Positions 55,615-60,679 of a stretch of 60,798 bases of DNA are shown here, piece by piece (positions within the stretch are counted from its first letter, which is position 1; every line of letters starts with the position of its first letter). This DNA is from Nitrospirota bacterium. GTDB taxonomy: Bacteria; Nitrospirota; Thermodesulfovibrionia; Thermodesulfovibrionales; Dissulfurispiraceae. Below the pieces are notes generated by a model. It was not told where the DNA came from. It ran no database searches and saw only the letters and a list, made by a program, of their open reading frames with translations. A program made the position numbers and the translations under genes. Location: contig JBFMHE010000024.1 in assembly GCA_040752355.1 (NCBI GenBank), positions 1-60,798 on the forward strand, in the 5' to 3' direction.

Positions 55615-56664
55615 TCAGCCGCCGAAGGTGACGAGGCACTTCAGCGAGTCGCGCGCTTCGGCGGTCAGTTTATACGCCTGCGCCGTCTCGTCGATGCCGA
55701 AGCGGTGGGTCACGAGCTTGTCCGCTGTAACGAATCCCTTCCTGATAAACTCCAACGCTTCTTTCGTATCGGTAGGACCGCACGAGTAGCTTGTCACCAG
55801 GCTGATGTCGTTGAAGTAGAGGTGGTTGGGATCGACGGTCAGCATCTCGCCCGGCTTGGCCGGGGTGAAGAGGACCACCGACCCTCCCGGCGCCGCTGCC
55901 GCTATGCCGGTCTCCATGACCGCAGCGCTGTTCGGCCCGACGATAACGATATCCGCCATGCGGCCGCCTGTCAGCTCACGCACCCTGGCGATCATATCCT
56001 CCTTTGACACATCGATGACATGATCTGCGCCGAGCTCGAGCGCCTTCCGTAATCTGGACGGTATCATGTCCGTGCCGATGACCCGCTTCGCCCCAAAGGC
56101 CCGTGCGAGGAGTACATGCATCTGGCCCATGACGCCGAGGCCGATGACGAGCATCGTATCTCCGGGCCTGACCGCCGCCCGCCGCAGCGACTTCACCACG
56201 CATGCCGTGGGCTCCACGAGCGTGCCGTCCTCATAGCTCACCCCTTCGGGAAGCCTGATCGTATCGTGCCTGAGATTCGTCTCGGGAATGAGCACGTATT
56301 CGGCGATGCCGCCGGGGACGATCTTCGTCGTGCGCCAGGTCGAGCACTGCACATGGTCGCCCCGCTCGCAGCAGGCGCAGGAGAGGCACGGCGCATGGTG
56401 GTGCACGAAGACCCGGTCACCGACACTGAACGCCGGTGGCTGAGAGCTGACGGCTGACAGCTCTTTCCCCAGCTCGACGATCTCCCCTGCCGGCTCATGC
56501 CCGATCACCAGAGGCGCCTTCTTCTCGATATACCACGGCATCACATCCCCCGAACAGATGCCGCACGCCTTCGTTTTTATCAATGCATCACGCGGTCCGA
56601 CTTTAGGGACAGGCATGTCCTCGATGCGAATATCCGTAAAGCTGTAGAGCCTGGCGACTTTCAT
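55615..56664 (-). CDS. Zinc-dependent medium-chain alcohol dehydrogenase, with in-frame insertion
   Basis: 349 residues. Catalytic zinc ligands lie in ACGICSGD and GHEPAGE; the structural zinc Cys cluster CLSCACCERGDHVQC is at about 93-107; the NAD(P) motif is VIGLGVMGQMH. It oxidises an alcohol or polyol; the substrate is unknown. Residues about 69-79 (LSAVSSQPPAF) interrupt the usual GKxVxxFxVGDRV region and are encoded by TCAGC mini-repeat DNA. Its start codon overlaps the integrase stop (ATGA), with GGAGAG inside the integrase end as ribosome site. Confidence 0.92.
   Translation of the reverse strand: MKVARLYSFTDIRIEDMPVPKVGPRDALIKTKACGICSGDVMPWYIEKKAPLVIGHEPAGEIVELGKELSAVSSQPPAFSVGDRVFVHHHAPCLSCACCERGDHVQCSTWRTTKIVPGGIAEYVLIPETNLRHDTIRLPEGVSYEDGTLVEPTACVVKSLRRAAVRPGDTMLVIGLGVMGQMHVLLARAFGAKRVIGTDMIPSRLRKALELGADHVIDVSKEDMIARVRELTGGRMADIVIVGPNSAAVMETGIAAAAPGGSVVLFTPAKPGEMLTVDPNHLYFNDISLVTSYSCGPTDTKEALEFIRKGFVTADKLVTHRFGIDETAQAYKLTAEARDSLKCLVTFGG
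56428..56465 (-). repeat. GCTGA/TCAGC mini-repeat inside the alcohol dehydrogenase gene
   Basis: The coding strand reads CTGTCAGCCGTCAGCTCTCAGCC, broken here as CTGTCAGCCGTCAGC plus TCTCAGCC, encoding LSAVSSQP. It shares TCAGCCGTCAGC with the repeat between dctP and dctQ and resembles the one in aroC. Confidence 0.65.
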
Positions 56665-57974
56665 TTGCTCTCTCCATAAAGTACATCCAATGGACTCTGA
56701 GGCGCATTTGCCATGTTACGAAGGACATGAGTATAGATCATAGTCGTTTCAACATTTTTATGCCCAAGGAGGCTCTGGACCTCTCTGATATTGATACCGT
56801 TCTGAAGCAGATGCGTAGCAAAGCTGTGTCTCAGCGTATGGACTGTTGCATGCTTAACTATACCTGCCTGCCGCAGCGCATCTCTGAGTGCAAGTTGAAT
56901 GGATTTATCGCTGATGTGATGTCGCCCGACCTTGCCGCCTCTCGGATCTACAGAAAGCTTGGACGAGGGGAAAACATATTGCCACCGCCATTCTTTAGCG
57001 GCATCAGGGTATTTCCGTTCAAGCGCATCCGGCAGAAAGACCGCTCCATGTCCGGCGGCAACGTCCTTGTCGTGAAGCGCCTTTACCTTCTTCAGATGCT
57101 CTCTCAATCGCTCCTTCACCGCTACTGGAAGCATTGTCGTGCGGTCCTTGTCACCCTTGCCACTGCGGATAAAGATCGTGTTTGCATCAAGGTCAATATC
57201 CTGCACCCGCAACCGGGCGAGCTCCATAAGGCGAAGCCCGGCCCCGTAGAGCAGCTCGGCAATCAGTAGATTGGTCCCGGTCATATGCCTGAACAACTGT
57301 CCCATCTCTTCTACGGTAAGCACAACCGGGAGCTTCTGTCCGCGTTTCGCTCTGACGGTATCGCCGAGATGTTCTGTCTCCTTGTTAAGTACATAGCGAA
57401 AGAGAAACAGAATCGCGTTGAAGGCCTGGTTTTGAGTAGAAGAAGATACTCTTTGCTTAAGCGCAAGATGGCTCAGGAAATTTTTGAAATCTGCCGATGA
57501 CAAATCATCTATTTTCTTGTCGTCAGATTCAAGGGCATAAGAGAAGAAACGCTCGATCCACTGAAGGTATGTTCGTTCGGTACTGTACGAATAATGCTTC
57601 AACCTTATCAAGCGCCTTGTCTCTCTGAAAGCGCTATCTCTATCCGCGATCCTTGCTGCGCCCGCGGTCTGACCGCCGGTTTTGCCGAGATAATTGAAAT
57701 AATAAAGCCTCAGTGCATCGCTTGCCTGCTTCGGCTGCCACTCAAGAACACGTTTGTCCGACCGCAGGGTCTCGATAAACTCCTGAACCGCTATTTCATC
57801 ATACTCCGTCACTGAGCGCTCAAGCCTGCGGGCAAATACGAAAAACCTGCTTACCCAATAAGCGAGAAACGGGATATTTTTTTCAGGGGCAAGCTTTCTT
57901 TCCGCAAGGAACTTTTGAAACTCAGGAAGGAGGTTATTATTAACATCAGACGATTTTGCCATATTTCCCGCCAT
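56661..57974 (-). CDS. intI: Integron integrase (IntI-type tyrosine recombinase)
   Basis: About 437 residues. The tyrosine-recombinase set is complete: Arg248 (YGAGLRLMEL), His379 and Arg382 (HTLRHSFATHLL), His405 (LLGHKN) and Tyr414 (IYTHV). The extra patch found only in integron integrases (about 305-336: HGAVFLPDALERKYPDAAK, then EWRWQYVFPSS) identifies it as IntI rather than XerC/D or a phage integrase. An N-terminal extension of about 115 residues precedes the core SAM-like domain. ATG at 57974 is chosen; GTG at 57998 and ATG at 57962 are alternatives. It reads away from its cassettes, as usual, and its stop overlaps the adh start. Confidence 0.95.
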   Translation of the reverse strand: MAGNMAKSSDVNNNLLPEFQKFLAERKLAPEKNIPFLAYWVSRFFVFARRLERSVTEYDEIAVQEFIETLRSDKRVLEWQPKQASDALRLYYFNYLGKTGGQTAGAARIADRDSAFRETRRLIRLKHYSYSTERTYLQWIERFFSYALESDDKKIDDLSSADFKNFLSHLALKQRVSSSTQNQAFNAILFLFRYVLNKETEHLGDTVRAKRGQKLPVVLTVEEMGQLFRHMTGTNLLIAELLYGAGLRLMELARLRVQDIDLDANTIFIRSGKGDKDRTTMLPVAVKERLREHLKKVKALHDKDVAAGHGAVFLPDALERKYPDAAKEWRWQYVFPSSKLSVDPRGGKVGRHHISDKSIQLALRDALRQAGIVKHATVHTLRHSFATHLLQNGINIREVQSLLGHKNVETTMIYTHVLRNMANAPQSPLDVLYGESK

Positions 57975-58049
57975 TTCGCTTTTAAACCATATTACCACAA
58001 AAAACGAAAAAGTGAAAATGCCTGCAATTGATTTTATGGCAGTTTTCTA

Positions 58050-58078
58050 TTTCAAAAAATCTCTCAATGTGCTATAGT
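58050..58078 (+). promoter_or_regulatory. Candidate integron cassette promoter (Pc)
   Basis: TGTGCTATAGT (58068-58078) is an extended -10; a weak TTTCAA (58050-58055) lies 17 bp upstream of TATAGT. It points into the cassettes from between intI and attI, where cassette promoters are found. The same -10 word serves host genes at 4945, 15151 and 35231. Confidence 0.5.
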
Positions 58079-58125
58079 GGAGACAATTTTAAGTAATATG
58101 GCGGTCCGTATAGTAATTGTTCGGC
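58079..58125 (+). other. Candidate attI site
   Basis: The first cassette joins the platform at GTTCGGC (58119-58125), with the crossover after G58119. TTCGGC is the exact complement partner of GCCGAAC, the 5' box of the first attC, so this is the insertion point. The left limit of attI is a guess; the integrase core-site repeats cannot be defined by eye. Confidence 0.75.
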
Positions 58126-58152
58126 ATTTAAATCACAACAGGAGGTCTAATA

Positions 58153-58848
58153 TTGAGATGTACGTGTGAGAATATAGCTGTTCCCGACATAAAACTTTCT
58201 ACGGTGTGTATTGGTCATCTGTGGATGTTCAACAACATTACCGCAACTGAGTTGGAGGTTCTCGCTGGCAATGCTAAACGTCGACAAATCGGGAAAGGCA
58301 AGTTTATTTTTAACCAAGGGGATCCATCTACCGAAATGTTCCTAATGAAATCTGGTAGGGTCAAATTGACTAAAATCCTCGAGAATGGTAACGAAATCAC
58401 CTTGGATATTAGAAAAGCTGGGGATTTTATCGGTGAAAATATTTTTTCTGGCGAAAACCTCTATCCAGTAAACGCTGTGTGTATGGACAATACACTTACC
58501 TGTGGATTTTCAAGGGAACAGTTAAGCCAGATGATACTACAATACCCAAATATCGGCTTACAGATTATAAAAAATATGAGCGAAAGAATTTCTCAACTTA
58601 CCAGCAAAGTTGGCTCAATGGCCGAAACGAGCATTGAAGATCGTCTATATAGTGTTCTCAAACAAATTGCAAATGAACATGGCATTCCAAGTCAAAAAGG
58701 TGTGAAATTACAATTCCCTTTGACCCATGAAGAATTAAGTTTTCTTATCGGCGCACATCGTGTCAGTGTCACAAAAGCCATAAAATATCTCAAGGAAACA
58801 GGGAAAATAGAAATAGACAACCGAGTCATGATTATTACACCCGGATGA
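58153..58848 (+). CDS. Cassette-borne CRP/FNR-type regulator with N-terminal cysteines
   Basis: 231 residues in cassette 1. TTG start, 7 bp after GGAGG; the ATG at 58158 is out of frame. Cys3, Cys5 and Cys19 near the N-terminus and two more in the sensor domain (VCMDNTLTCGFS) could hold an iron-sulfur cluster as in FNR, though spacing differs. The cyclic-nucleotide-like barrel (about 25-145) is followed by a Crp-type helix-turn-helix. Its recognition helix, GAHRVSVTKAI, lacks the Glu and Arg of FNR (VETISR), so its DNA site should differ from TTGAT. A palindrome TGTAGC-N4-GCTACA lies right after the gene. AT-rich relative to the chromosome. Confidence 0.9.
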   Translation: MRCTCENIAVPDIKLSTVCIGHLWMFNNITATELEVLAGNAKRRQIGKGKFIFNQGDPSTEMFLMKSGRVKLTKILENGNEITLDIRKAGDFIGENIFSGENLYPVNAVCMDNTLTCGFSREQLSQMILQYPNIGLQIIKNMSERISQLTSKVGSMAETSIEDRLYSVLKQIANEHGIPSQKGVKLQFPLTHEELSFLIGAHRVSVTKAIKYLKETGKIEIDNRVMIITPG

Positions 58849-58893
58849 TTTTTTTCACTATGAGGACAACAGAATTTAAATAAAAAAAGTAAA

Positions 58894-58936
58894 TGTAGCC
58901 TCAGCTACAACGTTTTATGTCTGTGTGGACTATATT
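58894..58936 (+). promoter_or_regulatory. Palindromic operator at about -41.5 and -10 of the flavoprotein gene
   Basis: TGTAGC-CTCA-GCTACA (58894-58909) is a perfect inverted repeat of CRP/FNR size. The -10 TATATT is at 58931-58936 and no -35 is seen. With a start near 58943, the operator centre at 58901.5 is at about -41.5, where class II activators of this family bind. The regulator gene ends 45 bp upstream. Confidence 0.65.
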
Positions 58937-58972
58937 AATCCCAACCTTAACCTAAACCGAGGAGGATTAATT

Positions 58973-59626
58973 ATGGACCCTAAAGTTATTGGTATTTCTG
59001 GAAGCCCTGTAAAAGATTCAAACACTGACAGATTAGTCAAGGCCGTACTCGAAAATAGTGGTCTGCCCCATGAATTTATCAAACTCAGTCGCGTAAAAGT
59101 ACAACCCTGCATTGCCTGTCTTGGTTGTACGAAAGACAATATCTGTAAAGTTAAAGATGATTTCCCTGCTCTCGCAGAAAAGATTAAAAAAGCTGGCGCA
59201 ATTGTTGTTGGTGGATATCCTCCATATGGAACTATAGATGGTTTTACTAAATCTTTTCTTGAAAGACTTTTCTCGCTTCGGCACCAAAATGGTTTTAATC
59301 GTGGCAAGTTAGCAGTCGTTGTTGTGACAGGAATTGGTCGTGGTGCTCCTGGTCTTGAAGAAGCTAGTAACCAGGTAACCCATGCACTGACTTTAGAAGG
59401 AATGGACGTGCTTGGCCAGCTTAAGGCTACAGGCAACCCAGAATGTATGGTTTGTGGCTTTGGTCAATCTTGCCCAATGAGCGCACTTCCTTGGATTTTT
59501 GGCAAGGATACGGAAGTAACACCTGAAAAATTTTGTAATGTGGAAAACCAGCATAATATTTGGAATGAAGCACATAGGCTTGGCAAGGAAATCCACAACC
59601 GACTCAAGCAGCAGCAATCCATGTAA
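58973..59626 (+). CDS. Iron-sulfur flavoprotein (NADPH-dependent FMN reductase fold)
   Basis: 217 residues in cassette 1. Flavodoxin-like FMN-binding start (VIGISGSPVKDSNTDRLV), then a compact Cys motif CIACLGCTKDNICKVKDDF (C-x2-C-x2-C-x5-C, about 45-57), the 4Fe-4S signature of Methanosarcina Isf-type proteins, then GGYPPYGTIDGFTKSFLERL. Isf proteins reduce O2 or peroxide in anaerobes. The ATG at 58973 follows GAGGAGG. Further Cys residues near the C-terminus (ECMVCGFGQSC) are an oddity. Pairs with the FNR-type regulator upstream. Confidence 0.9.
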   Translation: MDPKVIGISGSPVKDSNTDRLVKAVLENSGLPHEFIKLSRVKVQPCIACLGCTKDNICKVKDDFPALAEKIKKAGAIVVGGYPPYGTIDGFTKSFLERLFSLRHQNGFNRGKLAVVVVTGIGRGAPGLEEASNQVTHALTLEGMDVLGQLKATGNPECMVCGFGQSCPMSALPWIFGKDTEVTPEKFCNVENQHNIWNEAHRLGKEIHNRLKQQQSM

Positions 59627-59651
59627 TATTGGACAAATCATATTCCATGAC

Positions 59652-59683
59652 AAAAGAGGAGCGCTTCGCTCCTCTTTTTTTTT
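59652..59683 (+). terminator. Strong intrinsic terminator inside cassette 1
   Basis: AAAAGAGGAGCG (59652-59663) and CGCTCCTCTTTT (59667-59678) form a perfect 12-bp stem with a CTT loop, followed by T residues to 59683. It lies 26 bp after the flavoprotein stop. It would stop both the cassette's own transcript and read-through from Pc into cassette 2. Confidence 0.92.
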
Positions 59684-59772
59684 CGCAAGCTGCCTAACAA
59701 CCTCGGGAAATGAGTGTTAATGCGGTGTCAAAAGAAAAATTGGATACATTTTCTAACAAATAAACGACAAAA

Positions 59773-59861
59773 GCCGAACAAACGCATAGAGAGGGACGGC
59801 GGGGAGCAGCTTTCTCTGAAACTATTTCATTGGCCGCCGCCCCTCATGCTAGGCGTTGGGC
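59773..59861 (+). other. attC site of cassette 1
   Basis: 89 bp. 5' box GCCGAAC (59773-59779), 3' box GTTGGGC (59855-59861) with crossover after G59855. Between them, GAGGGACGGCGG (59791-59802) pairs with CCGCCGCCCCTC (59834-59845), giving the long imperfect palindrome that attC needs. The core GACGGCGGGGAGCAGC is shared with the second attC. 5' box complements the start of cassette 1 (TTCGGC). Confidence 0.9.
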
Positions 59862-59938
59862 GGCGCACGATGCAACCGCCCGGCAGCGTCAATCGTAGGT
59901 CTGACATACAAAACCAACAATAAATAATTGGAGATTAC

Positions 59939-60211
59939 ATGGATATAACGGCATGGCTGTTAATAGCTATCTTTTGCATAGGAATTATATCACTAATTGG
60001 ATTCTTTGTTACAAAAACAAAGGGATTTGGTCGCTTTGCAACAAGCTCGTTTCTATTGCTTCTAGTCATTGTAGTGTCATCTCTTTTTTATGCATCTGGA
60101 AAACTTGATGCCCAAGTATTTGCAAATATATTATTTGCGGTTATTGGCTTTGCCGGTGGTCTATTTACTGGGAAAGAGAAAGAACCAACAACCAATAATG
60201 TCACCAAATAG
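59939..60211 (+). CDS. Cassette 2 small membrane protein (hypothetical)
   Basis: 90 residues, three hydrophobic helices (about 5-24, 35-53, 62-77) and a hydrophilic Lys/Glu/Asn tail. Ribosome site TTGGAG 5 bp before the ATG. No family recognised. It is the first gene of cassette 2, about 80 bp from the cassette start; the cassette begins with a GGGCGG-N12-CCGCCC hairpin. Confidence 0.75.
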   Translation: MDITAWLLIAIFCIGIISLIGFFVTKTKGFGRFATSSFLLLLVIVVSSLFYASGKLDAQVFANILFAVIGFAGGLFTGKEKEPTTNNVTK

Positions 60212-60224
60212 CTACTCAATAGAA

Positions 60225-60464
60225 ATGAGCATTATATCAAATATCGCTAAGGCAGTGTCTAATTGGTACAACGGAGCATATATCCCTCACGAAAACCCCC
60301 ATGATTCTCCTTTGGTTATTCCTGGCGGGGATTATGAGTGCCACTGGACTGCAATAGCAGCTAAAGCAATTATCGGTTTCTATTTAAGGCATTGGCAATG
60401 GCTTTGGACAACTATCATTGCCATTATCGGGGTGTATGCCACTGTTCTTACGCTTAAACCGTAG
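60225..60464 (+). CDS. Cassette 2 second gene: small protein with C-terminal membrane helix
   Basis: 79 residues: a soluble start (ISNIAKAVSNWYNGAYIPHENPHDSP), shown here only in part in running text, a YECHW segment, then hydrophobic residues about 42-76 with Trp-rich LRHWQWLWTTII. It begins 13 bp after the stop of the first gene, so translation may be coupled. The frame is open back to 60090 and an ATG at 60198 overlaps the first gene; neither start has a good ribosome site. It reminds me of hypothetical proteins often seen in integron cassettes, but that is memory, not a search. Confidence 0.6.
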   Translation: MSIISNIAKAVSNWYNGAYIPHENPHDSPLVIPGGDYECHWTAIAAKAIIGFYLRHWQWLWTTIIAIIGVYATVLTLKP

Positions 60465-60586
60465 AGACTCAAGTCCCATCCCAAAGAAAGCACCAGATAC
60501 CCAGAAAAGCATATTAGACAACACAAGAAACGAAAATCTTATAGTATTTTCAGACATTAAGGCACCTATCTAAAATAAAAATCTTA

Positions 60587-60679
60587 GCCCAACAATTGGG
60601 TCAACCAGACGGCGGGGAGCAGCGTCGCGCTAGTCGCGGCAAGTTCAGTGGCCGCCGCTGGTTACCCTTGGCGTTCTGT
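60587..60679 (+). other. attC site of cassette 2
   Basis: 93 bp. 5' box GCCCAAC (60587-60593), a perfect RYYYAAC, and 3' end GTTCTGT (60673-60679) with crossover after G60673. CCAGACGGCGG (60605-60615) pairs with CCGCCGCTGG (60652-60661). Its 5' box complements the first bases of cassette 2 (TTGGGC) rather than the following bases, as expected in an array. The apical part CGTCGCG/CGCGGC forms a further stem. Confidence 0.9.

Follow-up and report, generated by a model that had tools for sequence, protein, structure and literature searches.

Integron cassettes are usually regarded as promoterless, depending for expression on the Pc promoter of the integron and on their position in the array. 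Among Crp/Fnr-type regulators, class II activation from a site centred at -41.5 is typical of FNR, and NtcA promoters carry a GTA-N8-TAC site with a -10 element about 22 nt downstream; among flavoproteins, Isf of Methanosarcina combines a flavodoxin-like FMN fold with a compact CX2CX2CX4-7C motif. The HcpR proteins, by comparison, were reported to lack FNR-type cysteines, and HcpR2 has an operator, GTAACnnnnGTTAC, arranged like the one described below (PMC1274295). Cassettes with promoters of their own (cmlA1, toxin-antitoxin) and regulator-only cassettes (LysR) have been documented (PMC8876359, PMC2669170, PMC3856429).

The window analysed here is a stretch of 60,798 nucleotides from a Nitrospirota bacterium, and it ends in an integron whose first cassette joins a regulator, an operator, and a flavoprotein. 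The features discussed are as follows:

56661–57998, reverse strand: IntI, the integron integrase (445 aa), extended at its N terminus by about 120 aa
58051–58078, forward strand: Pc-like promoter TTCAAA-N16-TATAGT with an extended -10 (TGC), from a consensus scan and conservation of the -10
58079–58119, forward strand: distal part of attI to the crossover, CGTATAGTAATTG followed by TT, conserved in loci L103 and L105 up to the crossover and divergent beyond
58120–59855, forward strand: gene cassette 1, 1736 bp, from core sites at both ends and composition
58140–58145, forward strand: ribosome-binding site AGGAGG of the regulator, read from the sequence
58153–58848, forward strand: Crp/Fnr-family regulator, 231 aa, TTG start, with C3, C5, C19, and C117; Pfam match, start position shared by homologues
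58894–58909, forward strand: operator TGTAGC-CTCA-GCTACA, perfect palindrome TGTAGCCTCAGCTACA, centred at a predicted -41.5
58931–58936, forward strand: -10 element TATATT, 22 nt past the operator's CTAC, a spacing found in other loci
58960–58965, forward strand: ribosome-binding site AGGAGG of the flavoprotein, read from the sequence
58973–59626, forward strand: FMN_red-fold flavoprotein, 217 aa, ATG start, with CX2CX2CX5C (residues 46, 49, 52, 58) and CX2CX5C (158, 161, 167)
59652–59678, forward strand: intrinsic terminator (z -4.9) with a stem of 12 bp and then a run of T
59773–59855, forward strand: attC of cassette 1, its 3' core running on as TTGGGC into cassette 2

A preliminary description had placed the cassette at these same limits and had read into it a cysteine-bearing CRP/FNR-type regulator, a palindromic operator, a promoter, and a strong terminator. 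The limits agree with matching core sites at both ends, and the components are all present—the regulator by its Pfam match and near-invariant cysteines, the operator, -10 element, and terminator as listed above, with the promoter belonging to the flavoprotein.

That 58120–59855 is a real integron cassette is confirmed. The left crossover falls between G and TTCGGC (58119/58120) and the right between G and TTGGGC (59855/59856), while the left core of attC (R'', GCCGAAC, 59773–59779) matches, letter for letter on the opposite strand, the GTTCGGC that would arise where the excised cassette closes into a circle. The bottom strand of attC folds at -19.3 kcal/mol (z -3.31; equalled by 0 of 200 shuffles), and cassette 1 has a G+C content of 0.405 against 0.595 in positions 1–55600 of the window. 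A second attC, at about 60587–60672, has long stretches in common with the first; the cassette that it closes (59856–60672) holds a 90-aa membrane-like open reading frame at 59939–60211 with no Pfam or NCBIfam match, and the contig ends within cassette 3. A continuation of the array on contig C39 was considered and rejected, as the attC-like match there sits inside coding sequence.

The integrase matches TIGR02249 over residues 126–440 (E 1.7e-127) and has homologues of 66–79% identity within the same family. Its N-terminal extension, which is common to several integrases of the family, gives a weak match to a second SAM-like core-binding domain (E 1e-4, under the curated cut-off). The attI sequence CGTATANTAATTG, followed at the crossover by TT, is identical in two related integrons (IntI 79% and 66% identical) whose first cassettes differ. 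A -10 element, TATAGT or TATATT, is conserved in both about 41 nt upstream of the crossover, and for this reason we take it to be that of Pc.

By its domains the regulator belongs to the Crp/Fnr superfamily: a cNMP-binding-like domain (cNMP_binding, PF00027, 4e-18, 65.6 bits) is joined to a Crp-type helix-turn-helix (HTH_Crp_2, PF13545, 2e-9, 37.8 bits), both above cut-off. The best NCBIfam match is NtcA, at 79.7 bits and so short of the equivalog cut-off of 244.95. The predicted structure (mean pLDDT 87.5) has the CRP fold, with Crp-type chains among its best structural matches. Compared with Crp-family regulators such as GlxR (4byy; Z 16.8, 199 residues) the rmsd is 9.0, presumably because the two domains are differently placed; matches to the sensor half alone reach 2.0–2.5. 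FNR structures do not appear among the 50 matches listed for the model, an absence that does not exclude them, and they are matched by sequence at E 2e-22. CprK is also among the solved homologues (E 2.7e-20), although it scores under the CRP-, NtcA-, and FNR-type structures.

The cysteines of the regulator form the pattern CxC-x13-C plus C117. In an alignment of 56 rows, in which the window sequence is counted twice, C3, C5, C19, and C117 are conserved in 51, 52, 51, and 53 rows, and the exceptions are mostly gaps. C19 and C117 align with C29 and C122 of FNR, whereas the other two are placed unlike C20 and C23. The four residues would hold a cofactor, for which an FNR-like iron-sulfur cluster is the likeliest candidate and another cysteine-based redox or metal switch the alternative. 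Redox sensing is suggested by the cysteine pattern, and the role against oxygen or peroxide put forward in the preliminary description is putative. Control by cAMP was rejected: it is unlikely because the position of CRP Arg82 is occupied by V, L, M, or I throughout the family, and never by R. One family mate carries tandem regulators (L025:10342-11043 and L025:11178-11903), the first of which has F and N in place of C3 and C19 and retains C5 and C117. Such a naturally occurring variant could help in probing the sensor.

The flavoprotein matches FMN_red (PF03358, 2e-14, above cut-off), and its model (mean pLDDT 89.9) resembles proteins of the NADPH-FMN-reductase and flavodoxin type (2oys; Z 20.3, 174 residues, rmsd 3.0). 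Its only sequence matches among solved structures are flavone reductase (E 2e-13) and one Trp-repressor-binding-like protein; no Isf structure is among them. Across 34 homologues C46, C49, C52, and C58 are invariant, and seven cysteines are invariant in all. The label "Isf type" given earlier is apt for the first motif, CX2CX2CX5C, which agrees with that of Isf, but loose for the protein as a whole, which has CX2CGX4C as a further invariant motif.

Within the window the operator palindrome is the sole match at zero or one mismatch, where 0.04 would be expected. In 623 kb of regulator loci GTAGC-N4-GCTAC occurs 40 times, against an average of 0.59 for the 59 other arrangements of the half-site letters, and the same half-site with other spacers (0 to 8) occurs at most once each. 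In 30 of 45 operators the distance from CTAC onward to a TANNNT element is exactly 22 nt, and every other distance is found at most twice (nominal binomial 2e-43, a value that ignores relatedness). We reject a chance palindrome on all three grounds: the count in the window, the enrichment in the loci, and the fixed -10 spacing. Beyond a brief A-G-C/A stretch bordering the operator, the aligned promoters share no conserved -35-like element. With transcription of the flavoprotein predicted to start at 58943, the layout is that of a class II activator centred at -41.5; this geometry is strongly supported by comparison of the loci, and the regulator is predicted to activate the flavoprotein gene. 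The pattern has exceptions: several loci lack a perfect operator (e.g., L027 and L042), and the -10 lies at 21 rather than 22 nt in two of three loci found later (L123–L125).

The recognition helix fits this site. Residues 180 and 181 are reported to go with site bases G3 and A6 (PMC1274295); nearly all members of the present family carry R-V-x3-R/K, so that R180-E181-R185 of CRP becomes R-V-R/K. The arginine is retained along with G3, while the glutamate is lost and A6 has become G—as expected from the rule.

In ten whole genomes of relatives, an operator followed by the TA element occurs zero to two times each, and six of the eight matches lie at the regulator locus. No further exact operator with a -10 occurs in the host genome; a lone one-mismatch match elsewhere in it was taken as chance, since it lies inside a coding region and its "-10" falls at the start of the next gene. 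With operators few or absent elsewhere, the circuit appears local and nearly private to its locus, which suits mobility: regulator, operator, and target can travel together. Behind such operators lie genes for flavodoxin, for PNPOx-like FMN proteins, and, once, for a URO-D-type methyltransferase, as well as those for the flavoprotein and the regulator itself. The operators before flavodoxin and FMN-binding PNPOx-like genes lend something to the idea that iron or iron-sulfur status is what the regulator senses, and that it calls on flavin-based electron carriers when iron is scarce, and Fur control of flavodoxin has been proposed in Desulfovibrio (PMC545781). We nevertheless think this improbable, as a main target with two iron-sulfur-type cysteine motifs would be a poor choice under iron starvation.

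The preliminary description had called for a search for the regulator–flavoprotein pair in other genomes, and a pair confined to the window would have spoken against it. The pair in fact recurs widely, so this objection is rejected. A plasmid search with the flavoprotein found pGLOV01 of Trichlorobacter lovleyi, where a Crp/Fnr gene precedes the flavoprotein gene (42% and 71% identical) in the same order as in the cassette, with TGTAGC-ATTG-GCTACA between them. In genome G006, from the window's own family, two regulator genes come after that of the flavoprotein. Using an alignment of four regulators as the sole query, we scanned 84,980 genomes and found 58 regulator loci, chiefly in Desulfobacterota and also in Actinomycetota, Acidobacteriota, Nitrospirota, and one labelled Hyphomicrobiales. 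The flavoprotein lies within 6 kb at about 30 of about 55 usable loci; around half lack it nearby, some of them cut by contig ends. In the window's phylum 2 of 296 genomes match the regulator at E 1e-40, the window's own being among the matches listed. In a class sample around Desulfosediminicola 6 of 243 match at 1e-70; three of these are loci already known, and the three new ones (L123–L125) all have regulator, operator, and flavoprotein. The trio is patchy in distribution, and the association of regulator and flavoprotein is strong. No relative of the integrase was found in the loci of chromosomal pairs, and two IMG/VR scans found no viral carrier.

The surroundings of the pair vary. On pGLOV01 a type II haloacid dehalogenase gene lies directly before the regulator (L021:224-910), and a cluster of such proteins turns up close to the pair in five further loci (L031, L046, L053, L073, and L074); cobalamin genes adjoin the flavoprotein on pGLOV01 and on Sulfurospirillum pSulSP. 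On the latter the flavoprotein (L022:4998-5648, 43% identical) stands behind a TetR-type gene without this operator, so that control of the enzyme may fall to a different regulator. Such neighbours, together with CprK among the solved homologues, would accord with a regulator that answers a small ligand—a halogenated or other xenobiotic, as CprK does—with structural or zinc-binding cysteines and a flavoprotein acting as a detoxifying reductase. We regard this as unlikely, though the foremost of the alternatives: the dehalogenase and cobalamin neighbours occur in a minority of loci, CprK ranks below the other structures, and the FNR-aligned cysteines are retained almost everywhere.

We consider it likely, then, that a dedicated local activator–target circuit is present in the cassette as a mobile copy. 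Pc of the integron would transcribe the regulator; a regulator dimer would bind TGTAGC-N4-GCTACA at -41.5 and, acting as a class II activator, switch on the flavoprotein promoter, its activity set by a cofactor held by the four conserved cysteines. As output there would be a flavin enzyme with the NADPH-FMN-reductase fold and cysteine motifs of iron-sulfur type, serving electron transfer in anaerobes, and the terminator would close the unit. Other targets at some loci (flavodoxin, PNPOx-like proteins, the regulator itself), and the loci without a flavoprotein, indicate that the flavoprotein is not the sole possible output.

The role given to Pc reflects how little sequence precedes the regulator. 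From the cassette edge to the start codon there are only 33 nt, ribosome-binding site included, which leaves no room for a promoter; the regulator is probably transcribed from Pc (58051–58078). At several chromosomal loci an operator also lies upstream of the regulator, which suggests autoregulation there; the cassette, unlike these, lacks that region. The earlier view of a self-contained module that could work wherever it lands thus finds no support, for with no upstream promoter at the landing site the regulator would be silent. The flavoprotein gene could be reached both by read-through from Pc and by its own promoter. The missing regulator promoter, the absence of a strong terminator between the genes, and the usual reading of cassettes from Pc (PMC3856429) would also be compatible with an ordinary two-gene cassette, transcribed as one operon, in which the palindrome is irrelevant in the host. 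We find this very improbable, as the cassette keeps the operator and the -10 spacing exactly as at the chromosomal loci, despite diverged intergenic surroundings.

The circuit seems to have come from outside the phylum. In trees the regulator pairs with a Desulfocapsaceae copy (support 100/99), the flavoprotein is placed with copies from Desulfocapsaceae and Geobacterales (89/83), and the Nitrospirota copies fall into supported groups of their own. From these positions both genes appear to derive from Desulfobacterota, most simply acquired together as one cassette, and the donor was probably a relative of Desulfocapsaceae.

A wider reading, which we hold tentatively and with rather less conviction than the circuit itself, is that these proteins form an undescribed Crp/Fnr subfamily with a CxC-x13-C plus C switch (iron-sulfur or other cysteine-based), the private operator TGTAGCN4GCTACA, and flavin redox targets in anaerobes, and that an integron has packaged the whole sensor–operator–effector circuit as a cassette whose promoter is inactive without the activator it travels with. 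If this is true, what moves is a signal-responsive regulon, not a gene. The subfamily is now compactly defined and testable by its protein signature, operator, promoter spacing, and targets. In the open-access literature we found no published name for the operator or the subfamily, and no report of a putatively signal-responsive activator joined in one cassette with its operator and an enzyme target.

Against the described systems, the regulator shares with FNR the Crp/Fnr fold and the cysteines aligned with C29 and C122; its CxC-x13-C differs from the spacing of FNR C20, C23, and C29, its recognition residues are R-V instead of V-E, its conserved operator is TGTAGCN4GCTACA instead of the FNR box TTGATN4ATCAA, and its regulon appears tiny and local, unlike that of FNR. 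NtcA resembles it in site and -10 layout, but the regulator is not cyanobacterial and has other targets, and we know of no such four-cysteine pattern in NtcA. HcpR and HcpR2, Crp/Fnr regulators of hcp, likewise occur in Deltaproteobacteria and anaerobes; no hcp-like gene was recognised among the recurrent neighbours of the regulator loci. Their operators are TGTGAN6TCACA, TTGACN4GTCAA, and GTAACN4GTTAC (PMC1274295), whereas the half-site here is GTAGC throughout. The flavoprotein has the predicted FMN flavodoxin-like fold and the compact CX2CX2CX4-7C motif of Isf; unlike Isf, it carries the second invariant motif CX2CGX4C. Finally, where cmlA1, toxin-antitoxin, and LysR cassettes bring a promoter or a regulator, cassette 1 unites a predicted signal-responsive activator, its operator, and an enzyme target. 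If it brings its dedicated activator along with a promoter that obeys no other, a cassette could go on expressing its gene in response to the signal once transferred, as long as the activator is transcribed. Cassette 1 would be a control circuit assembled in advance and packed for travel, though not fully independent, and its trio is also scattered through the chromosomes of sulfate reducers and their kin.
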